Shown piece after piece: positions 20,401 through 51,168 of a stretch of DNA of 64,000 bases; the first letter of the stretch is position 1; the number at the start of each line of letters is the position of its first letter. The notes beneath the pieces are model-generated. The model was given only the letters and a program-made list of their open reading frames with translations, was not told the origin of the DNA and made no database searches. A program made the position numbers and the translations under genes. The stretch comes from Methylocystis echinoides (lineage in GTDB: Bacteria; Pseudomonadota; Alphaproteobacteria; Rhizobiales; Beijerinckiaceae), in the NCBI RefSeq assembly GCF_027923385.1, contig NZ_BSEC01000005.1:105361-169360 (forward strand), written 5' to 3'.

Positions 20401-22011
20401 CTACGCGGCCAGGGCCGAGGCGGCCTGATCTTTTTTGCGCCAGTTCCACGGCAGCAGTTCATCGAGCCGATGCGCGGGGTGCGCGGCGATGCGGGCGAGG
20501 ACGTCGGCGAGCCAGACCTGCGGATCGACGCCGTTCATCTTCGCCGTGACGATGAGGCTGTACATCGCCGCGGCGCGTTGACCGCCGCGGTCGGAGCCGC
20601 AGAACAACCAGCTCTTCCGGCCAAGGGCGATGCCTCTCAGGCCGCGTTCCGCGGCATTGTTCGACAAGCACACGCGCCCGTCGCCGAGGAACAGCGTGAA
20701 GGCCGGCCAGCGCTTCAGCATGTACTGGATCGCCTTGGCGAGATCGTGCCCGCGCGAGAGTTTGGCGAGTTGTTCGCGCAGATAGCTTTCCAGCGCGTCG
20801 ACGAGCGGGCGGCTCGACGCCTGTCGAACGACGAGACGTTCCTCCGCGCTCTTGCCGTTGATCGACCGCTCGATCGCAAACAGCGCGTCGATCCGGCGCA
20901 CAATTTCGATGGCGATCGGCGACAGCGGGATCTCCTTTTTCCCCGCCGCCTTGCGCCGGGCATTCTCGTCGATGTCCGCCATTGCGAAGAACGGGCGCCG
21001 CGCATGGACCCAACACGCGGCCTCGCGGATCGGGCCGGGCTTGCGCCCCGCCAGATACAGCTTGTTGTAGCCCTCATAGGCGTCTGCTTGCAGGATGCCG
21101 GAATAAGTCGCCAGATGGCCTTGCGGATGTTCGCCGCGCCGGTCACGCGAGTAATAGAACATCGCCGCCGGCGGCCCGGCGCCGCCGAAGGGCGCATCGT
21201 CGCGGACATAGACCCAACAGCGCCCGGTGTCGGTCTTGCCCTTGGCCAGCACGGGAACCGTCGTGTCGTCCCCATGCAGCCTCTCCGCCGCCAGCACATG
21301 CGCCTCGACGCGGCGCCGCAGCGGGGCGAGCGCGGCGCAGATGGAGCCGACGGCGTCGGCCATGGTCGACAAGGCAATCGGCGCGCCTTCGAGCGCATAG
21401 CGCTCGGCCTGACGGTTCAGCGGCTGATGCTGGCCGAACTTCTCGAAGGCGATCATCGCCAAAAGGCTCGGCCCCGCCCAGCCGCGCGCGACGACATGAA
21501 ACGGCGCCGGCGCCTGTGTGACCTTCTCGCAGTCCCGGCAGGTGAACTTCTCCCGCACGGTCTCCACGACCTTCCACTGGCGCGGCGTCGTCTCCAGCGT
21601 CCGCGTCACATCCTCGCCGAGCTTGCGCAGGCGCGGGCCGCCGCAGCAGGCGCAGGCCTTCGGCGCCTCGATCACCACGCGTTCGCGCGGCAGATGGTCG
21701 GGGAAGGTGTTGCGCTCCGGTCGCTTGCGCTCGAAACTGGCGACAGTGGTCGTTTTGGCGACGGCGCGCTCCGCGGCGAGTTCGTCTTCCGTCGCGCTCG
21801 CTTCCAGCTCTTCGAGTTCGAGCGACAACTGATCGAACAGCCGCGCCGAGCGCTCCGACTTTTGCCCGTAGATCTGGCGCTGCAATTTGGCGATCTGGAG
21901 CTTTTGCGCGGCGATCAGCGCCATGTCTTCCGACGCCTTCGCAAGCGCGACGGCGAGCTGCGCTTTCAGCACGGCGTTTTCGTCGAGAAGAGCTTTGGCC
22001 GCAGCGTCCAT
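20401..22011 (-). CDS. tnpC: IS66 transposase TnpC
   Basis: A 536-residue IS66 transposase. An N-terminal leucine-rich/helical region (LLDENAVLKAQL, LQRQIYGQKSERSARL) is followed by a zinc-finger-like segment (CACCGGPRLRKLGEDVT ... FTCRDCEKV), the catalytic domain (LHGDDTTVPVLAKG with the first Asp, TGRCWVYVRDD, LQADAYEGYNKLY), and the C-terminal IS66 domain (NNAAERGLRGIALGRKSWLFCGSDRGG). Catalyses cut-and-paste or copying of the element. Intact. A long open frame on the opposite strand is its shadow. Confidence 0.93.
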   Translation of the reverse strand: MDAAAKALLDENAVLKAQLAVALAKASEDMALIAAQKLQIAKLQRQIYGQKSERSARLFDQLSLELEELEASATEDELAAERAVAKTTTVASFERKRPERNTFPDHLPRERVVIEAPKACACCGGPRLRKLGEDVTRTLETTPRQWKVVETVREKFTCRDCEKVTQAPAPFHVVARGWAGPSLLAMIAFEKFGQHQPLNRQAERYALEGAPIALSTMADAVGSICAALAPLRRRVEAHVLAAERLHGDDTTVPVLAKGKTDTGRCWVYVRDDAPFGGAGPPAAMFYYSRDRRGEHPQGHLATYSGILQADAYEGYNKLYLAGRKPGPIREAACWVHARRPFFAMADIDENARRKAAGKKEIPLSPIAIEIVRRIDALFAIERSINGKSAEERLVVRQASSRPLVDALESYLREQLAKLSRGHDLAKAIQYMLKRWPAFTLFLGDGRVCLSNNAAERGLRGIALGRKSWLFCGSDRGGQRAAAMYSLIVTAKMNGVDPQVWLADVLARIAAHPAHRLDELLPWNWRKKDQAASALAA

Positions 22012-33715: not shown

Positions 33716-34561
33716 TCAGCTCTTTGCCAACGCGTCAGATCCCGTGATCAGCTCCAGGAGCTCAGTCGTTATTTCGCCTTGCCGCGCGACCCCCTCCTGT
33801 TGCTTGAGCTGTTGGAGCTTTTTCTCGACATTTCCATGGGCCGATTCCATGGCCGCAAAACGTTCGGCGTTCTCGCTCGCAATTGATTCGACCGCGGCCT
33901 CCGTCAGCATGGCGAAGACATATTCGGCCATCAGCGATTCATGCAGGGCGACCGGCTTCAAATTGAAGAGCGGCGGCTGGCGTGGTTGCTTAGCTGCAAG
34001 CGCCTTCAGGTCGAGAGGCAACACCAAACGTGTTTCAATCGCAGGCGCGCCACCCTGGCGGTGGCGCGCATATACTGCCTCTACGCGCGATACTTCGCCA
34101 TTCGCGATCAAAGCGTAAAGTTTATTCACAAGGCGATAGATGATCTCCGGCGCCCCGGCTAAACGCGTCGCCATCGGCGCCTTCCAGGCCATTTCTCTGC
34201 CCCGCTCCGTCACCAGCGCCGACCCGCGCGATCCCAGCACGAACAACAAGTCTGTTTGACCTAGCACCCCCTCTGCAGCCTCGAGTAGCCGCGCGTTGAA
34301 GCTCCCAACAAAGCTGTGCTCCGCCATATAGAGGACCGCGGCTTTCTTTGCAGGGCCTTCTTGCCTCTCGGCGACCGGCTCCGCCATGAGCGGCAGAGTA
34401 CTGGCCAACGCCGCGCCGACGGCTTCGGTGTAGCGAGCTGCGGCGGGGAGCGCGTGTAGGGTTTCTTGCAGCCTCATCCCCGCAAGCGAGCGCATAGCCC
34501 CAACGATCTCGCTCAACTCGTGGATGCTCCCGATGTGCGCCTGGATCTCAGCGAGCCGCAT
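33716..34561 (-). CDS. atpG: N-type ATPase gamma subunit
   Basis: A 281-residue gamma subunit, the central shaft of the F1 part. N-terminal helix MRLAEIQAHIGSIHELSEIVGAMRSLAGMR matches the usual gamma start, and the C-terminal helix (LLELITGSDALAKS) is shorter and diverged, as expected for N-ATPases. It is the last gene of atpDCQRBEFAG. Its ATG overlaps the atpA stop (TAATG). Confidence 0.85.
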   Translation of the reverse strand: MRLAEIQAHIGSIHELSEIVGAMRSLAGMRLQETLHALPAAARYTEAVGAALASTLPLMAEPVAERQEGPAKKAAVLYMAEHSFVGSFNARLLEAAEGVLGQTDLLFVLGSRGSALVTERGREMAWKAPMATRLAGAPEIIYRLVNKLYALIANGEVSRVEAVYARHRQGGAPAIETRLVLPLDLKALAAKQPRQPPLFNLKPVALHESLMAEYVFAMLTEAAVESIASENAERFAAMESAHGNVEKKLQQLKQQEGVARQGEITTELLELITGSDALAKS

Positions 34562-36090
34562 TACTTCTCATCCTGTAGCTCCGGAGCGCCGGCCAATAAT
34601 TCCAGCGCATGGAGGAGGCGATTACGCAGATCTTCTGATAGAGCCTCAGACTTCTCATCTAGCGATAGGGCTTCTGGGCAATGCTGAGCCAACCAAGGAC
34701 CGAGTCGGCTTCGGAATTTTTTAACCTCTTCAGGACGTAGCCTGTCCAGAACACCAGCATTCAAGGCTAAAAGGAGCGCCACCTCTTCGCCGAGCGCTAG
34801 CGGAGCAAACTGAGCCTGCGCGAGCACGGCGCGTATCCTTCGCCCGTGTTCGATGGTCTTTCGGGTCCGCTCATCCACCATTGTGCCAAAGCGGGTGAAG
34901 ACCTCGAGCTCCAGAAACTGGGCGTATTCGAGCCGCAAGCTTGCCGATAGCCCTTTCAGCACCGGGGCCTGGGTCTTGCCGCCGACGCGGGAAACGCTCT
35001 TGCCAATGTCGACTGCAGGCTTTTGATCTTCATAAAACAGACGTGGGTCAAGATAGATCTGCCCGTCGGTAATCGAGATGAGATTCGTTGGTATGTAGGC
35101 GCTGATGTTGCCGGCCTGTGTCTCGGCGATCGGCAAGGCTGTCAACGAGCCGCCCCCACGCTCTGGCGCGAGCTTCGCCGCCCGCTCGAGAAGCCGGGAA
35201 TGAATGTAGAAAACGTCTCCGGGGTAGGCCTCGCGGCCAGGCGGCCGCCTGAGCAGGAGTGAGATCTGCCGGTAGGCCGCCGCATGTTTTGTCAGATCGT
35301 CGATTACAAGCAACACATCGGCGCCGCGCTCGACAAAATATTCGGCCATCGTGCAGGCTGAATACGGCGTGAGCCATTGAAGACCAGGCGAGGAATTGGC
35401 TTCACCCACGACAAATAGGCAGCGTTCCGGCGCGCCGTAACGTCGAATGGCGTCAATCACCTGGGCGACCGACGACGCTTTTTGCCCAATCGACGCATAA
35501 ATACACAACACGCTGCTATTGCGTTGGTTTATCATGGTGTCGACGGCAATCGCCGTCTTACCTGTTCCCCGGTCCCCGATAATGAGCTCGCGCTGCCCTC
35601 GCCCTATCGGGATCATGGCGTCGATCGCCAATAACCCTGTCGCGAGCGGACGAGTGACCAGCGCGCGGTCAATGATCGTCGGCGCCCGCCGTTCGGTCGG
35701 CGCCGCCGAAGTATCAGCGATGGGGCCCTTGTCATCTAGCGGCGCGCCGAGGGCGTCGACAATGCGGCCGAGCAGCGAATAACCGACAGGCGTGCGCGCG
35801 ACCTCTCCGGTTCCGCGGACGATGCTGCCTGAAGTGATGGGACCCATGTCGCCGAGCAGCATGCAACCTATCAGATCTTCACCGAGATCGACCGCCAGTC
35901 CCCGCACGCCGCCCTCAAAAATCAGAAGTTCGTCGAGGCGCGTGTGCGGTAGCCCTGAGACCGTAGCGACTCCGTCGCCGACCTTTTCTACGCGGCCGAT
36001 TTGCTCGAGCCGTGGCTCCAGCTCGATCTGCTGGATTTTGGCGCGGCTGATTTTTGCCCAATCACGCAAGTCCGCCGAAAGCTCGGTCAT
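34561..36090 (-). CDS. atpA: N-type ATPase alpha subunit
   Basis: A 509-residue alpha subunit with a P-loop GDRGTGKT in IPIGRGQRELIIGDRGTGKTA and the non-catalytic site pattern of alpha subunits. Other landmarks: VEKVGDGVATVSGLPHTRLDELL, CIYASIGQKASSVAQVI, and AYPGDVFYIHSRLLERAAKL. The ATG at 36090 gives MTELSADLRDWA and overlaps the atpF stop (ATGA); a start 15 codons upstream would overlap atpF more. It forms the hexamer with beta. Confidence 0.93.
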   Translation of the reverse strand: MTELSADLRDWAKISRAKIQQIELEPRLEQIGRVEKVGDGVATVSGLPHTRLDELLIFEGGVRGLAVDLGEDLIGCMLLGDMGPITSGSIVRGTGEVARTPVGYSLLGRIVDALGAPLDDKGPIADTSAAPTERRAPTIIDRALVTRPLATGLLAIDAMIPIGRGQRELIIGDRGTGKTAIAVDTMINQRNSSVLCIYASIGQKASSVAQVIDAIRRYGAPERCLFVVGEANSSPGLQWLTPYSACTMAEYFVERGADVLLVIDDLTKHAAAYRQISLLLRRPPGREAYPGDVFYIHSRLLERAAKLAPERGGGSLTALPIAETQAGNISAYIPTNLISITDGQIYLDPRLFYEDQKPAVDIGKSVSRVGGKTQAPVLKGLSASLRLEYAQFLELEVFTRFGTMVDERTRKTIEHGRRIRAVLAQAQFAPLALGEEVALLLALNAGVLDRLRPEEVKKFRSRLGPWLAQHCPEALSLDEKSEALSEDLRNRLLHALELLAGAPELQDEK

Positions 36091-36833
36091 GTCGCTATTA
36101 GCTCCGATCTGATCGCGCCGAAAGCGCTTCGCCACGAATAGCCCAAGGTCGCGTTACGAAAATGGAGTTCGGCGCCAGCGACGAGGTTGGGATCGACATT
36201 GAATTCAAAGCTGACCTGTGCTCCCAGCGACCCACGAAGGCGCGCGCACCAGATTTCTTTGGTGTTGTTGTCTAAAGGCAACGGGGTGACGATCGTCACA
36301 GCAGGGTCACCGCCATGCTCACTATCGACGAGCGCGGCTCTTTCAGTCTCTGGAAGGGAAGCGAGCTGTCCTTCTAATTTTGCAAACCAAGGCTCTGTTC
36401 TCACATCGGTAGGCATCTCCCCTAATAGACGCTCTGCAACCTGGTCCGTTAAATCGAGCGATATGCTCCGGGCTGCTAAAGCCGCTTGCGCGCGCTCATC
36501 CGCGAGCGTTTTGCGCCCCTCTTCAAGAATAGCCTCGGCGTCGCTTTCGGCTTGTGCCCGTCGGGCCTGGGAAGCCTGCTCAGCTGCAGCCGAGGCCGTT
36601 TTTAACATGGCTTCCCGTTCCCCAGAGACGGCAAGTCGTTCGGCTTCCGTCGCAGCGAGTAACCGCTTCGCTTCTTCTGCGGCTGCATTCGCTTCCGAAG
36701 ATTGTTTCTCCATTTCCTGCCGCCGCGCATCAATCATATTGAGCGTCGGCTTGTACAACAGGCGATGGAGCAGCCACACGAGGATGGCGAAGTTGATCGT
36801 CTGCAGGCCGAGTGTCCACCAATCGAAGGTCAT
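36087..36833 (-). CDS. atpF: N-type ATPase b subunit
   Basis: A 248-residue stator subunit. One N-terminal membrane span (FDWWTLGLQTINFAILVWLL) is followed by a long Ala/Glu/Arg-rich coiled coil (residues about 35-140) and a C-terminal domain unlike short b subunits (SFEFNVDPNLVAGAELHFRN). That end resembles the delta-like tail typical of N-ATPase b subunits, which lack a separate delta gene. Indeed, no atpH-like gene is in the operon. Confidence 0.85.
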   Translation of the reverse strand: MTFDWWTLGLQTINFAILVWLLHRLLYKPTLNMIDARRQEMEKQSSEANAAAEEAKRLLAATEAERLAVSGEREAMLKTASAAAEQASQARRAQAESDAEAILEEGRKTLADERAQAALAARSISLDLTDQVAERLLGEMPTDVRTEPWFAKLEGQLASLPETERAALVDSEHGGDPAVTIVTPLPLDNNTKEIWCARLRGSLGAQVSFEFNVDPNLVAGAELHFRNATLGYSWRSAFGAIRSELIAT

Positions 36834-36836
36834 GGA

Positions 36837-37079
36837 TCACCCGGAATAGGGATTGGCGAATAGCAGCAGCAGCGCGATGACAAGGCAATAGATCGCCGTT
36901 GTTTCGATCATCGCCAGGCCGACAAAAAGCGTCCGCGAAATCACCCCGGCGGCCTCTGGCTGTCGGGCGATCGCTTCCATGGCCGCCGCGATCGCTCGCC
37001 CTTCAGCGAGCGCGGGGCCCACGGCCCCCATGGAAACAGCGACTGAGGCGCCGATGATGCTGATGATTTTGGGGTCCAT
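36837..37079 (-). CDS. atpE: N-type ATPase c subunit (rotor ring)
   Basis: An 80-residue two-helix proteolipid. Loop AIARQPE (Q40) and the C-terminal helix with Glu59 ([10 protein letters not shown]) are conserved. Glu26 in the first helix lies where Na+-driven c subunits have Gln or Glu, so each site has two carboxylates (Glu26, Glu59) plus Thr60/Thr61/Tyr64. This pattern is reported for N-ATPase and some Na+-ATPase rings; whether the ion is H+ or Na+ cannot be decided from sequence alone. Confidence 0.93.
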
Positions 37080-37088
37080 AGAGCCTCC

Positions 37089-38669
37089 TTAGCCTTTCTC
37101 AACGCTTCCGATCGCGGCGCCGATAAAAACTGTCGCGAGAACAGTGAAGATATATGCCTGAATGATGCCGAGCAGTCCTTCCAGCAACATGAGGGGCACT
37201 GGGACGAAAAGCCCGGCAAGCGCTACAACCAGGCCGATCATAAACTCTCCGCTCATCACATTGCCGAACAGGCGCACCATGAGCGAAAACGTGCGCGTCA
37301 CTTCGGAAACGATATTAAGCGGCAGCATGATGAGCTTCGGCTCAGCGAAACTCGAGAGATACTTGAGAAATCCACGGCTTCTTATCCCGAAGTAATGCAC
37401 GGAGAAGAATACAATGAGCGCAAGCGCCGCCGGCGTTTCCAGTTTACTTGTCGGCGCTTCAGCTCCCGGGACCAAAGAGGATAGATTCGCAGCCACGAGA
37501 AATATGAATAGGGTCCCGAGCAAAGAGAGGTAGGGTCTGGGATCTTTCTGCAGGACGTCCTCAATTTGCTGCATAACGCCCATGACGATGAGCTCCAGCA
37601 CAGCCGCGCGTCTATCGGGGACGGAAGGCAAGCTGCGGGTTACAAGCCACGAGCCGATGGCTAACGCCAGCATGATAGCCCAGGTCGTCACGACTGGGCG
37701 GGTGATGGGGACCGGTCCTATCTGGAAAATAACCGCACTCTCGAGCGGGGAATGTTTTCGAGCCGGCGCCCGGGTAGTTTTCTGTCCTTCAACAAGCTTA
37801 GAGAGCCTATCAGACGCCTCAACGGCCGGGCGAAAATGAGGATCGAGCCTGAGTGCTGCCTCGAGATCCTGCCGGGCAAGCGGTAAATTGCCTTGCGCGC
37901 GATATACATCGGCGCGGTCGACGCGGGCTTGGAGAAATTCCGGATTGAGCTGGATCGCCTCCGACAAGTCCCGGAGCGCGTTGTCGAGGTCTCCCTTCGA
38001 ACGGAAGAGCGTCCCACGCTTCCAGTGAAGCTCAGCCGATTTTGGGTCCCGCCTGATGGCCTCGGTGATGTCCGTGAGCGCCCGGTCGACGTCACCATTC
38101 GCAAGGTAAGCGTCGCCGCGGCCAACGTAGGCTTTGACTAAATCAGGATCGATCTCCAGAACCCGCCCATAATCGGCGATGGCGGCGTCCCATTCCTTTC
38201 GGGCTTGAAAAGCCTCTGCTCGGCCGAGGAGCGCGAGGACGAAGTGCGGTTGCGACGCTAGCGCTCGAGTGTAGTCCGCTATGGCGCGATCATAGCCTTG
38301 CTTATCATATAACACGGCCGCCCGAGTGGCGTAGGCAGCAGCCGATCTTGGGTCAAGTTGCAGCGCATGTTCCACATCGGCGATGGCGCGGTCGAGGTCT
38401 CCCCGCGCGCGATAGGCTTCGCCGCGATTTAGGTACGCCGCAATCCGGTTGCTTTTGCTCTCACGCCGCCCTTTGACAATGATTTTGCTGCAGCCTTCGA
38501 TTCGGCGTTCTAGTTTGGAACTGAAACACTCCCCAATTTGGCCAGACTGGGAGAAGCTCGCCGCCGCCGACATTAATAGGACCGCCACGGCGAGAGCGGA
38601 GAAAATCCCCGGTCGCAGGTTTACGACGTAACGCAAAAGAGAGGGGCCGGCTGCCCAAGTAAGGGCCAT
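37089..38669 (-). CDS. atpB: Exported six-TPR domain fused to N-type ATPase subunit a
   Basis: A 526-residue protein, more than twice the usual length of subunit a (about 220-240). Residues 1-40 contain a signal-like span (GIFSALAVAVLLMSAAA). Residues 41-65 carry CFSSKLERRIEGCSKII, typical of exported TPR proteins. Six 34-residue TPRs follow (about 75-276; e.g. AYRARGDLDRAIADVEHALQ). A linker (about 277-307) leads to a complete subunit a (308-526) with AANLSSLVPGAE, the essential Arg466 in MVRLFGNVMSGEF, and QAYIFTVLATVFIGAAI. No stop or in-frame ATG lies between the parts. The ATG at 38669 follows the atpR stop by one base; a start 18 codons earlier is less likely. The TPRs would lie in the periplasm, where subunit a N-termini are. 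No precedent known to me. Confidence 0.88.
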   Translation of the reverse strand: MALTWAAGPSLLRYVVNLRPGIFSALAVAVLLMSAAASFSQSGQIGECFSSKLERRIEGCSKIIVKGRRESKSNRIAAYLNRGEAYRARGDLDRAIADVEHALQLDPRSAAAYATRAAVLYDKQGYDRAIADYTRALASQPHFVLALLGRAEAFQARKEWDAAIADYGRVLEIDPDLVKAYVGRGDAYLANGDVDRALTDITEAIRRDPKSAELHWKRGTLFRSKGDLDNALRDLSEAIQLNPEFLQARVDRADVYRAQGNLPLARQDLEAALRLDPHFRPAVEASDRLSKLVEGQKTTRAPARKHSPLESAVIFQIGPVPITRPVVTTWAIMLALAIGSWLVTRSLPSVPDRRAAVLELIVMGVMQQIEDVLQKDPRPYLSLLGTLFIFLVAANLSSLVPGAEAPTSKLETPAALALIVFFSVHYFGIRSRGFLKYLSSFAEPKLIMLPLNIVSEVTRTFSLMVRLFGNVMSGEFMIGLVVALAGLFVPVPLMLLEGLLGIIQAYIFTVLATVFIGAAIGSVEKG

Positions 38670-38670
38670 A

Positions 38671-38952
38671 TTAGCCGTCTCTTTGATGCCGCAGCGCAAG
38701 CTGGCGAGCAATAAGAAGGCCAATAAAGGTGGCGAGCAAGGGCATGGCCCCCATGCGCGCCATGAAAAACAACAGGGTCGTCACCCCAATTATTCGGGCC
38801 GCTGTGAGGGTTGAAGGGACCATCCAGCCCGAACCCGCGGCAATGTGCGCCACTGTTGCACGCATGGCCGCGAAATACGCGAGCCCAAAAACGAAGCCCG
38901 ATAGGGCTGCAGCGGCTGCCGGTAAAGCGATCGAAACAAGCTCGAGAGTCAT
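38671..38952 (-). CDS. atpR: N-type ATPase-specific membrane protein AtpR
   Basis: A 93-residue protein with three membrane spans, found only in N-ATPase operons. The pattern ALSGFVFGLAYFAAMRATV, ARIIGVTTLLFFMARMGAMPLL, FIGLLIARQLALRH includes charged Arg residues inside spans, as reported for AtpR. Thought to help assemble or stabilise the c ring. The ATG at 38952 overlaps the atpQ stop (ATGA). Confidence 0.82.
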   Translation of the reverse strand: MTLELVSIALPAAAAALSGFVFGLAYFAAMRATVAHIAAGSGWMVPSTLTAARIIGVTTLLFFMARMGAMPLLATFIGLLIARQLALRHQRDG

Positions 38953-39228
38953 TCGCTTTGCATCCTCTTCCAGGCTAGCGCGCATCCAAGCGCGAGGCCG
39001 ATTGCGAGCAAGCTCAAAGTCCAAAAAATACCGGAAGCGAGACGGCTATCTAGCCAGCGCCCAACAAAGACGCCGATCAACGTAGGCGTCACAATTGTCC
39101 AGCCTAAAGCGCCGATAAGCGCGAGGTTGCGGCCGAGCGGACGCTCCCCTTCATGCTGGCCAAGCGCGCGGCGGCGCCGCCGTAACCTGACGGCTTCCTC
39201 AAGATTTTCGTGGTTCTCTCGCTTTCCC

Positions 39229-39236
<8 letters not shown>
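38949..39236 (-). CDS. atpQ: N-type ATPase AtpQ (AtpI-like) membrane protein
   Basis: A 95-residue AtpI-like protein with two spans (LALIGALGWTIVTPTLIGVFVG and IFWTLSLLAIGLALGCALAW) after a basic N-terminus (EEAVRLRRRRRALGQHEGE). Likely an assembly factor for the c ring. The ATG at 39236 gives MNEGKREN and overlaps atpC by 8 bases. Confidence 0.82.
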
Positions 39237-41328
<2,092 letters not shown>

Positions 41329-47566: not shown

Positions 47567-49010
47567 TTACGTCACTGATAACCGGACATAAGCCGGATGC
47601 AAAGGTCGCAGCGCATTGGCGATGACCAATAGCGACGCGCCGACATCGGCGGCGATGGTGCCCCAAAGGGTGGCCAAGCCGGCGAAAGTGAGTGCCATGA
47701 AGATTGCCTTGACGCCGAGCGAGAACGCAATGTTTTGCCGGATAATAGCAAGTGTACGTTTCGCGGGGTGAACCAGCCAGGGCAACCTTGAGATGTCGTC
47801 GGTCATCAGCGCGATGTCGGCTGTTTCGATCGCGGCGTCGGAGCCAATTGCGCCCATGGCGATGCCGAGACTGGCGCGTGCTAGCGCAGGCGCATCATTT
47901 ACGCCGTCGCTAACCATTGCGACGACGCCATAACGGCCGACCAGCTCGTCAATCTTCTTAACTTTGTCCTCTGGCAACAATTCCGCATATACCTCGTCGA
48001 CGCCGACTTCACGCGCAATGGCTTCGGCTGTGACCCGGTTGTCTCCCGTTAGCATGACAATATGCAAGAGCCGGCAGCATGCAGCCGCCGGACGATTTCG
48101 CCCGCCTCGGGCCGAATGGTGTCGGCCACGGCGATGAGTCCGCAGATATGCCTCGCATTGCCGACGACGATCACGGTCTTGCCACCCCCTCCAATGCTTC
48201 CGCCAGTTCTGCAGACTGGGGCGTATCCTGGCCGCGTTCGACGACATAACGATGGGAGCCGAGCCAGAACGGCTCGCCATCAAACATGCCTGTCAGGCCC
48301 TTTCCTTTGAGCGCCTGGACCTCCGTCGCTGGCGCGGTGCCGCCCACCCGCTCTTGCGCCTTGTGCAGAATGGCGCGCGCCAGCGGGTGCGTGGAACGGG
48401 CCTCGAGCGCCGCCGCACGCGTCAACAATTCAGCGTCCGTATGCGTTCCGAACGGCGCAACACGGACGACCTCCGGCTCGCCGCGCGTGATCGTTCCCGT
48501 CTTGTCCATGGCTATGGCTTTCAGCCGGGCGGGAAGCTCGAGATAAGCCCCGCCCTTGATCAGCACGCCGGCTCAAGCCGATGAAGCGAGCGCCGCGACA
48601 ACGGACACGGGCGTAGAGATCGCTAAGGCGCAGGGACAGGCGATCACCAGCAGGACAAGCGCGCGATAGAACCAATCATCCCATGCTCCCCCGAACGCCA
48701 GTGGCGGCCCGAGAAAAACGACAAGGGCGAACACCATGACCGACGGAGTATAAACGCGGGCAAATTGTTCCACCCATTGCTCCGAGGGAGCGCGCCGAGC
48801 ATGCGCCTCTTCCACCATGCGGATAATGCGGGCGAGCATGGTTAGCGCGCCGTCACCGTTTATCGTGCCGGCAAAGACTTCGGCGCCCGGTTCCTTTTCC
48901 ACAGGCACACTTTCACCAGTGATCGGCGCCTGATTTACGGCGCTGACGCGGCCGTCGAGCGCAATACGCTCGCCGCCGCGAACGACGAACCGGTCGCCGC
49001 GGGATTGACG
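47567..49010 (-). pseudogene. Zn/Cd/Pb-type P1B-ATPase, truncated with frameshifts
   Basis: Three open pieces on the minus strand add up to most of a P1B-2 ATPase. First: DRFVVRGGERIALDGRVSAV, ITGESVPVEKEPGAEVFAGTING, RAPSEQWVEQFARVYTPSVM, IACPCALAISTPVSVVAAL (to about 48573). Second: IKGGAYLELPARLKAIAMDKTGTIT ... STHPLARAILHKAQE (48171-48566). Third: [43 protein letters not shown] (47567 to about 48060). Junctions are frameshifts near 48570, 48180 and 48060. The metal-binding N-terminus and first two spans are missing. GDGVNDAP reads SDGVNDAP. No ATPase can be made. Confidence 0.82.
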
Positions 49011-49245
49011 TTGCGCGTGGCGTCGGGGCGATGGCGGGGCCGGTCCTCGGAACGGCTTAGGCGGCGATCGTCTGGAGGGGCGTCTCACGGACTTCCGAGA
49101 CGGCGTTGCTGGAGACCTCCTCGGTAGTGCTCGGACTACGACGCACGAGCCTCCAGAGCGGTTGAAAGGCAGCGCGACGCAGACAGCTCGCCATGCCCGC
49201 GAGACGGCCGCGCTTTTAATCAATCAACCAGTTTACGGAGGTTCC
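49011..49245. other. Unassigned DNA
   Basis: About 235 bases after the P-ATPase break with only chance frames; the point where the similarity stops (about 49010) is a rearrangement junction. Confidence 0.35.
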
Positions 49246-49473
49246 TCATTCATTACAGGTCCACTGCCAGCCTTCGAGGATGTCCCAATCCCAGCAGACG
49301 CCGGGCTCGTGCTTAGTGGGAGTGCTCCAGTCGCGGTGCTGATACCGAAAATGGCCGCCATAATCCGGCCGGGTGGTCCCATGGAGGGGATGGCCCGCAG
49401 CATCATGGGCTAGAGCCAACGGCGTAGCTGTAAGAAACGCTGCTACTGTCAGAAGCGTGAGTTTTTTATGCAT
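49246..49473 (-). CDS. Small exported HRDW/WxWxC protein, family 1 (copy 3)
   Basis: A 75-residue protein with a signal peptide (LTLLTVAAFLTATPLALA). Mature part: HDAAGHPLHGTTRPDYGGHF, RYQHRDWSTPTKHEPGVCWDWDILEGWQWTCNE. ATG at 49473 has an excellent ribosome-binding site (GGGAGGTG). It lies between a P-ATPase remnant and an IS21 remnant. See 8816-9043 for the family. Confidence 0.72.
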   Translation of the reverse strand: MHKKLTLLTVAAFLTATPLALAHDAAGHPLHGTTRPDYGGHFRYQHRDWSTPTKHEPGVCWDWDILEGWQWTCNE

Positions 49474-49679
49474 GTGGCACCTCCCTGCCGGCGCGATACC
49501 GATGATGAACATGGATACTTAGCGCAACGCGGCCGACGCGAATGCCGAGACGCCAATTTTTTTCTCTCGACTCGTTTTGGGTGCCCCGATCGCCAACCTG
49601 TCAATTGCTTCAATTCCAGCGCCTCAATTCGCATTTGCTCTGCACGCGGCCCTGACCTTCATCGACGTCTTCTCCGCGC

Positions 49680-50241
<562 letters not shown>

Positions 50242-50245
50242 TTCT

Positions 50246-51168
50246 CCCAAAAAACGCCGGTTGCCAATCGCAACTGCAAGCCCGCCGACTCGACCCGTCA
50301 CGCCCTTTCCGACGGGCGCGTCAAAATCCGTGGCTTCGGTAAGGATCAAGTTGTGCTCGTTCGCCGCCTGAACAATCGCCTGCGCGAGCGGATGTTCGCT
50401 TGCCCGTTCGAGGCTTGCGGCGACTCTCAGGAGCTCGTTTTCTGTTATTTCTGCCAGGGGGCGGATCGCTGTCACACGAGGTTTGCCTTCCGTCAGCGTG
50501 CCAGTCTTGTCGATGACGAGCGTGTCAACCTTTTCCAGCCGCTCGAGCGCTTCGGCGTTTTTGATCAGGACGCCCGATTGCGCGCCGCGCCCGACGCCGA
50601 CCATGATCGACATTGGCGTGCCGAGGCCAAGGGCGCAAGGACAGGCGATGATGAGCACCGAGACCGCAGCGATCAGCCCGTAACTCATGCTCGGCTCAGG
50701 CCCCCAAATCACCCAGGCGGCAAAGGCGGCGATCCCGACGAGGATCACCAGAGGCACAAACCAGCCCGAGACCTGATCAGCAAGGCGTTGAATGGGCGCT
50801 CGGCTCCTCTGCGCGGAAGTGATCATTTCTACAATGCGAGAGAGCATTGTATCGCTTCCCACCTTGTCGGCGCTCATCACGAATCTGCCGGTCTTTGAGC
50901 GTGCCGCCGATCACATTATCTCCAACGCTCTTGATCACTGGCATGGACTCGCCCGTCACCATGGACTCATCCACCGAACTCCGGCCCTCGACAAGGGCTC
51001 CATCGACTGGGACCTTCTCCCCAGGGCGAACGCGCAAGCGGTCGCTGACGCGAACTTGCTCCAGAGCGACTTCCTCGTCCGAACCGTCATCTCGAACACG
51101 CTTCGCCGTGACCGGGGCGAGGTTAAGCAGGGCGCGAATAGCCCCGCCCGTCTGTTCCCGAGCGCGGA
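50246..51168 (-). pseudogene. copA: Truncated second copy of copA
   Basis: On the minus strand it spans residues about 217-520 of Cop[43 protein letters not shown], then a frameshift near 50890, [55 protein letters not shown], and [11 protein letters not shown]. It is about 90% identical to the intact copA at 41882-44164 by eye. The 3' side is cut by the IS21 remnant (about 50245) and the 5' side by the transposon remnant (51169). A short insertion or deletion at about 50890 further breaks it. Confidence 0.85.

Follow-up and report, generated by a model that had tools for sequence, protein, structure and literature searches.

A cysteine-capped TPR module fused to subunit a of a Methylocystis N-ATPase and shared with other membrane proteins

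Few membrane proteins are as conserved as subunit a of rotary ATPases, and no domain of the kind described here is known to us on it. How, then, should one read a gene of Methylocystis echinoides that stands in the atpB position of an N-ATPase operon and encodes, ahead of subunit a and in the same frame, a signal-like span and six tetratricopeptide repeats (TPRs)? The gene lies in a stretch of 64,000 nucleotides (the window) on a contig of 169,360 bases (C5 of genome G000), and an earlier note had singled it out. Is the fusion real, on which side of the membrane do the repeats lie, and what might they be for? We favour, with some reservation, a two-part subunit a carrying a Cys-capped six-TPR docking or clustering platform that would lie in the periplasm, and whose module is shared with about ten other families; the same qualified preference extends to the view that a secreted TPR protein without a fusion partner is either the ancestor of this module family or its sister.

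As the earlier note had stated, the operon is complete, all nine genes being in place in the order beta-epsilon-Q-R-a-c-b-alpha-gamma (atpDCQRBEFAG; Table 1), and no delta gene was found among the nine operon genes scanned. Gene order, lack of delta in the operon and an N-type subunit a identify the fusion and its operon, as judged from sequence, as an N-ATPase. Subunit b is long (248 aa) and is matched by TIGR03321 across 239 residues, under the cut-off. The stop of atpR lies one base upstream of the fusion ATG, a gap of the size that coupled translation would lead one to expect. A distant AtpB in the same genome (G000:C1:3562993, 33% identity) resembles that of a regular F-ATPase, as far as its subunit a gene alone can tell. 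The gene order and the subunit a family are shared with the N1No N-ATPase of Burkholderia pseudomallei (PMC5376962), and subunit c has, by eye, two carboxylates, as reported there for the N1No c-subunit. The accessible text of that paper gives nine open reading frames for the N-type operon and an H+ specific rotor ring, and it makes no mention of an extra domain on subunit a.

Table 1. Coordinates in the window of the N-ATPase genes and of the parts of the TPR-AtpB fusion.
Feature	Position	Strand	Basis
atpD (beta)	39645..41078	-	open frame, profile match
atpC (epsilon)	39229..39648	-	open frame, profile match
atpQ	38949..39263	-	TIGR02230, above cut-off
atpR	38671..39024	-	TIGR03165, below cut-off
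TPR-AtpB fusion gene, 526 aa + stop	37089..38669	-	sequence, reading frame
Leader, residues 1-44: two Arg, then hydrophobic span	38538..38669	-	sequence by eye, hydropathy, dN/dS
N-terminal cap, residues 45-76, with Cys48 and Cys60	38442..38537	-	alignments; AlphaFold2 helix 53-65
Six 34-residue TPRs, residues 77-280	37830..38441	-	Pfam, repeat register, AlphaFold2
C-terminal helix and short linker, residues 281-307, without membrane span	37749..37829	-	hydropathy, AlphaFold2
N-ATPase subunit a, complete, residues 308-526	37092..37748	-	Pfam, NCBIfam, alignments
Arg466 codon (motif RLFGN)	37272..37274	-	alignment
atpE (c)	36837..37079	-	open frame, profile match
atpF (b, 248 aa)	36087..36833	-	open frame, profile match
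atpA (alpha)	34561..36135	-	open frame, profile match
atpG (gamma)	33716..34561	-	open frame, profile match

The frame runs from an ATG at 38669 to its single stop, ending at 37089, and the parts described in the earlier note were recovered. Pfam places TPRs from about residue 77 to 283 and ATP-synt_A at 327-516, a strict 34-residue register gives six repeats, and NCBIfam NF009955 identifies residues 306-524 as F0 subunit A (319 bits, cut-off 302), the match to TIGR03306 (alternate F1F0 subunit A) staying under its cut-off (219 against 302). Arg466, the stator Arg of subunit a, does not vary among 40 aligned sequences. By eye the leader is like a Sec signal or a signal anchor, with a best hydropathy of 1.88 in its hydrophobic span, and the two cap cysteines are invariant in 12 modules and in 20 fusions (two alignments).

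The TPR fold itself is predicted with high model confidence. An AlphaFold2 model built with 40 aligned sequences gives six hairpins, with the cap helix on the N-terminal side and a further helix from residue 280 on the C-terminal side, at a pLDDT of 95-98 per ten-residue block over residues 51-290; such 34-residue helix-turn-helix repeats forming a solenoid are what defines a TPR domain. The subunit a part reaches mostly 59-87, and residues 300-310 fall below 50, so that the placing of the two parts relative to each other is undefined in the model. An earlier model (20 sequences) had the same TPRs (pLDDT 89-98 over 51-290) and a poor subunit a; submitted to Foldseek, it found designed TPR proteins and the TPRs of O-GlcNAc transferase as top matches. 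Among the best 60 of 74 PDB matches none covers both TPRs and subunit a, each part being matched separately.

Could the same gene also yield an ordinary AtpB? In the window copy the next in-frame ATG after codon 33 is codon 333, within subunit a, in agreement with the earlier note's statement that no ATG separates the parts, and neither GTG nor TTG occurs between 45 codons upstream and 22 codons downstream of the start of AtpB homology. A separate full-length AtpB therefore cannot start at the junction, and an internal start was rejected for this copy. Other copies differ in their codons: L042-L044 have a TTG two codons upstream of the AtpB homology, and the ninth and tenth codons of that homology are GTG and TTG; in L059 and L041 there are TTG codons about 18 and 34 codons upstream, and in L040 there is one about 42 codons upstream, so a short AtpB form made from an internal start is conceivable in L040-L044 and L059.

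The fusion recurs. A whole-protein search of 61 genomes (37 of the genus and 24 from other families of the order) found seven uninterrupted copies, which lie in six of 39 genus genomes (G010, G016, G019, G026, G029 and, twice, the window genome). The second copy of the window genome belongs to another complete N-ATPase operon, on contig C2, and is 43% identical to the window copy over residues 35-249 and 66% over residues 182-526. One fused copy, annotated 'F0F1 ATP synthase subunit A', is carried by plasmid pGW6_1 of Methylocystis rosea GW6. The other 33 of the 39 genomes have no such fusion, and at least seven genus genomes hold a plain N-type AtpB (G002, G007, G011, G025, G026, G033, G034). 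A protein database search scored on residues 300-526, with candidates of 0.55-1.75 times the fusion length, returned 321 hits, the best 120 of which include 20 clusters (P0001-P0020) with TPRs and ATP-synt_A; the only other TPR carrier among these 120, P0045, joins TPRs to a broken AtpB end. Named carriers in that database are Methylocystis sp. WRRC1 and Methylosinus sp. LW3. In a scan of named genomes with six peptide patterns, which missed the fusions of G010, G019 and G026, two of 59 subunit a loci were fused, both from Methylocystis and matching G016 and G029, and TPRs were absent from the other 57. Nearly all 59 loci have the N-ATPase gene order, though not L117. The fusion differs from the 57 unfused loci in its exported-type six-TPR domain. 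On a plasmid of Methylocystis rosea BRCS1 (L183), the N-ATPase genes, including the fusion, look split, through decay or assembly errors.

A rapidly built tree of 92 subunits a needs no more than one change of state to account for its 26 fused rows, and a single origin of the fusion is likely, though the tree gives no support to the fork that parts these rows from L062 and L064, and its branches to two distant rows are very long. Selection was estimated for the one pair compared that was divergent enough, the window copy and that of G010. In this pair dN/dS is 0.048 for AtpB (218 codons), 0.46 for the linker (25 codons), 0.31 for cap and TPRs (237 codons), which indicates purifying selection, and 1.13 for the leader (45 codons, residues 1-45), which has evolved fast. 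The value of 0.31 suggests that the TPR fold is kept, under weaker constraint than AtpB. With recurrence in genomes and protein clusters and with purifying selection, chance read-through or a frameshift was discarded as the source of the open frame, and the single frame without a stop between the parts stands as first described.

Is the domain then a peculiarity of subunit a? It is not: close copies of the module occur on some ten further families of membrane proteins, within the Methylocystis group and among metagenome proteins, namely ZntA-, CopA-, MgtA- and P2-type ATPases, CPA2 and NhaD-like antiporters, VIT1, TerC, a b561/molybdopterin protein and a cupredoxin, so that the partners, as assigned by family, are mostly transporters of metals or other cations. 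A model of the cap and two TPRs (A1) finds 23 places in 14 of the 39 genus genomes at E < 1e-30, leaving 25 without the module. These comprise seven AtpB, two ZntA-like, three CopA-like (one truncated where its contig ends, the partner being assigned from its opening residues), three MgtA, two P2-type cation ATPases, one b561/molybdopterin oxidoreductase, four cupredoxins (PF13473 being checked on one of the four) and one module without a partner. Two database searches, one taken as the best 120 of 1385 hits, many of them ordinary TPR proteins, gave further ZntA, CopA, MgtA-like and P2 fusions and added the CPA2 antiporters (P0184, P0250-P0252), VIT1 (P0186), TerC/Alx (P0224) and the NhaD-like antiporters (P0243, P0244, P0247, P0249; Pfam CitMHS_2 for P0243, JGI name NhaD). 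In a sample of 385 genomes of the class, A1 matched 22 at E < 1e-10, the window genome included, and the best match outside the genus had E = 4.9e-16, scoring being limited to 14 candidates in each genome. More weakly related sequences, about 40% identical, occur in one Bradyrhizobium and one Methylobacterium plasmid record. Among named genomes the module family proper was seen in the Methylocystis group only. On the window's contig but outside the window, a TPR module is fused to a Zn/Cd-type P1B ATPase (G000:C5:4691-7981, L177). For the MgtA fusion of pGW6_1 (L184:13386-17252) the annotated start (locus 14622) lies downstream of the TPR module, which is thereby left unannotated although it shares one open frame with MgtA.

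This variety of partners bears on the side of the membrane. The linker lacks a membrane span in 23 of 23 AtpB rows (two of them identical) and in all four CPA2 and all four NhaD-like rows, and one span follows the TPRs in the fusions to CopA (4/4), ZntA (4/4), P2 (3/3), cupredoxin (3/3), VIT1 (1), b561 (1) and MgtA (1/1 in the linker survey, 3/3 in a separate look at hydropathy). The N-terminus is held to be cytoplasmic in P-type ATPases, VIT1 and b561, and periplasmic in subunit a, CPA2 and NhaD-like antiporters, least surely in the last. Lys and Arg are commoner after than before the first span following the TPRs in 39 of 49 rows; four rows tie (P0008, P0009, P0184, P0244) and six show the opposite bias (L059, P0006, P0010, P0011, TerC, VIT1), five of them with an unsuitable span chosen: a later span was taken as the first in L059, P0010 and P0011, and for VIT1 the counted stretch reached into a Pro/Ala stretch. 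TerC is ambiguous, its linker having a best hydropathy of 1.19 and its span being read as the partner's own first one. In the cupredoxin fusion the charges would put the cupredoxin inside; cupredoxins are usually periplasmic. Since an extra span occurs only on partners whose N-terminus is held to lie inside, and given the charge bias, the Sec-like leader and the invariant Cys pair, the TPRs of the AtpB fusion most likely lie in the periplasm, as the earlier note had supposed, and a periplasmic module in every fusion is the simplest reading. The cap cysteines would then probably form a disulfide. As carried by partners of both orientations, the module offers a natural test of topology.

The Sec-type leader would thus carry the Cys-capped solenoid across the membrane, and the short linker would lead directly, from the periplasmic side, into the first span of an unchanged subunit a, no extra span being needed because the N-terminus of subunit a itself faces the periplasm. 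The solenoid would hang from the periplasmic face of the N-ATPase stator, beside the rotor, where it could bind partners without touching rotation. Attachment of the same module to some ten more inner-membrane families, mostly cation pumps and exchangers, suggests a common periplasmic docking partner or mutual clustering, and the TPRs of the fusions probably serve as a docking platform. Going by family names only, the ions concerned would be H+ or Na+, K+, Mg, Ca, Zn, Cu, Fe and Mn.

Where did the module come from, and has it moved between partners? A tree was built from 46 modules of some 110 residues each (L041, L043 and L044 stand outside it), and in it fused and partnerless modules are split from free-standing TPR proteins with support of 99/98. 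Partner types are interleaved, but AU tests do not reject single partner clades (p 0.059, 0.0595 and 0.0655; 0.059 for the AtpB-linked clade), so that swapping of modules between partners is only suggested, and it was dropped as an established claim. In the MgtA and ZntA fusions the modules are 55-67% identical against 85-91% for the ATPase parts, a difference that faster evolution of the module could cause as well as swapping. A P2-type fusion (L056) has, by eye, a stretch like the start of a cupredoxin between the extra span and the ATPase, and the CopA, ZntA, P2 and b561 fusions have spans similar to the one in the cupredoxin fusions; a gene of the form TPR-span-cupredoxin is therefore a possible donor of the module. 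The free-standing Cys-capped TPR proteins of the same genus (L178, L179, L180) have cap and repeats as in the fusion and, unlike the fused modules, no membrane protein attached, the 99/98 branch lying between them.

From one fusion to another, the stretch between the first cap Cys and the end motif grows or shrinks by whole multiples of 34 residues, giving two to seven repeats (P0246, L053 (MgtA), L168 and L057, none of them an AtpB fusion, stand outside this count). The leaders of P0004, P0006, P0008 and P0045 resemble subunit a itself: that of P0004 is identical at 33 of 60 residues to AtpB positions 128-187 (score 132, maximum 62 in 200 shuffles), and the other three score 63, 64 and 95 against shuffle maxima of 46, 45 and 47. 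The remaining leaders tested (P0016 was not part of this set) lie at or just over the 95% shuffle point, none over the maximum. In that branch, it thus seems, atpB was duplicated and the module came to lie within or next to a copy, a fragment of AtpB now acting as signal or anchor.

How far does the docking idea extend? It is possible, and for us only a tentative extension, that the mobile exported module is a common periplasmic plug that gathers the ion-homeostasis machines of the Methylocystis group or binds one shared partner, a reading that would cover the stator of a rotary ATPase, four kinds of P-type ATPase, antiporters and metal transporters. Some findings weigh against the docking platform as such: the range from two to seven repeats speaks against a single fixed binding geometry; the 33 genomes without the fusion, the 25 without the module and the seven plain AtpB mean that the module is dispensable; and the b561/molybdopterin and cupredoxin partners mean that ion pumps are not the whole rule. 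The low model confidence between TPRs and subunit a, together with the free-standing relatives of the module, would also suit a polyprotein whose cleavage in the linker sets the TPR part free in the periplasm and leaves subunit a in its usual form. We think this unlikely: the linker of the window copy is short (27 residues) and partly helical, and on other partners the module runs into a membrane span that would anchor it.

Or the module might be a mere leader or hitch-hiker, aiding insertion or carried along without a binding role of its own, as its attachment to unrelated proteins, variable repeat number, faster evolution than AtpB and many relatives lacking it would allow. We doubt this, as the dN/dS of 0.31 and the intact 34-residue register argue for a kept fold, and unfused subunits a show that insertion is possible without it. 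Metal-efflux genes around the locus and partners that mostly transport metals and cations might instead speak for a putative metal-binding or sensing domain, in which the Cys pair or the solenoid binds periplasmic metal and gates the pump; in an exported domain, however, a pair of cysteines with a spacing of 12 residues suggests a disulfide, and the free-standing relatives share the Cys cap, which makes sensing quite improbable. An artefact of sequencing or assembly, or a fused pseudogene, brought to mind by the broken-up version on the BRCS1 plasmid, deserves next to no credence in view of the seven uninterrupted copies in six genomes (two of them paralogues in one), the 20 protein clusters and the purifying selection. 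The two-part subunit a with a periplasmic docking platform thus remains our preferred reading. If it is true that one periplasmic domain serves rotary pumps, P-type pumps and antiporters, it would be a natural adaptor tag for membrane proteins, and through it one could investigate whether ion pumps of unrelated families are physically grouped.

Searches of an open-access library listed no paper that describes TPRs joined to a subunit of a rotary ATPase, and on this reach the earlier note's remark that none is known for any F-ATPase subunit holds good. In the accessible text of PMC4154653 the word 'fusion' turns up once, and neither 'tetratricopeptide' nor 'Methylocystis' is present. MamA, the magnetosome TPR scaffold, is described in the available part of PMC3905215 as free and self-assembling around magnetosomes; the TPRs of the fusion are instead joined to membrane proteins and probably exported, and the fusion scores 68.8 bits with the NCBIfam MamA model, against a cut-off of 200.

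The surroundings of the gene are rich in metal transport. Within the window are three RND pumps of the CusA/CzcA type and also a P1B ATPase of the copper type, and pGW6_1 brings fused AtpB, ZntA, MgtA and cupredoxin modules together on one plasmid. An RND-pump cluster, so named from its CusA/CzcA genes, lies near module genes in 10 of 22 loci, which are not independent (near copies, a shared plasmid); apart from RND efflux parts and other P-type pumps, no dedicated conserved neighbour of the fused genes was found in these 22 non-independent loci. Elsewhere in the window, several short frames at 48171-50880 (-) resemble fragments of a metal-transporting P1B ATPase, like the remains of one broken gene, and an IS66 family transposase lies at 20401-22011 (-) amid metal-efflux genes.

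Within another N-ATPase branch of the genus, one with plain AtpB, three genomes have an alpha subunit of 837-861 aa (L049:11244-13829, L050:6290-8863 and L051:11232-13745, from G034, G033 and G025, respectively), in which a CusB/HlyD-type adaptor domain (PF16576) follows the ATPase part, with a hydrophobic span before the domain in L051. Such adaptor domains are normally periplasmic, and on its profile match the one on the long alpha subunit is a second kind of normally periplasmic domain fused to an N-ATPase subunit. Another HlyD/CusB adaptor domain forms the C-terminal part of a P-type ATPase on pGW6_1 (L053:15368-18841), and, throughout the genus, many frames 1000-1600 aa long have matches to this HlyD part.
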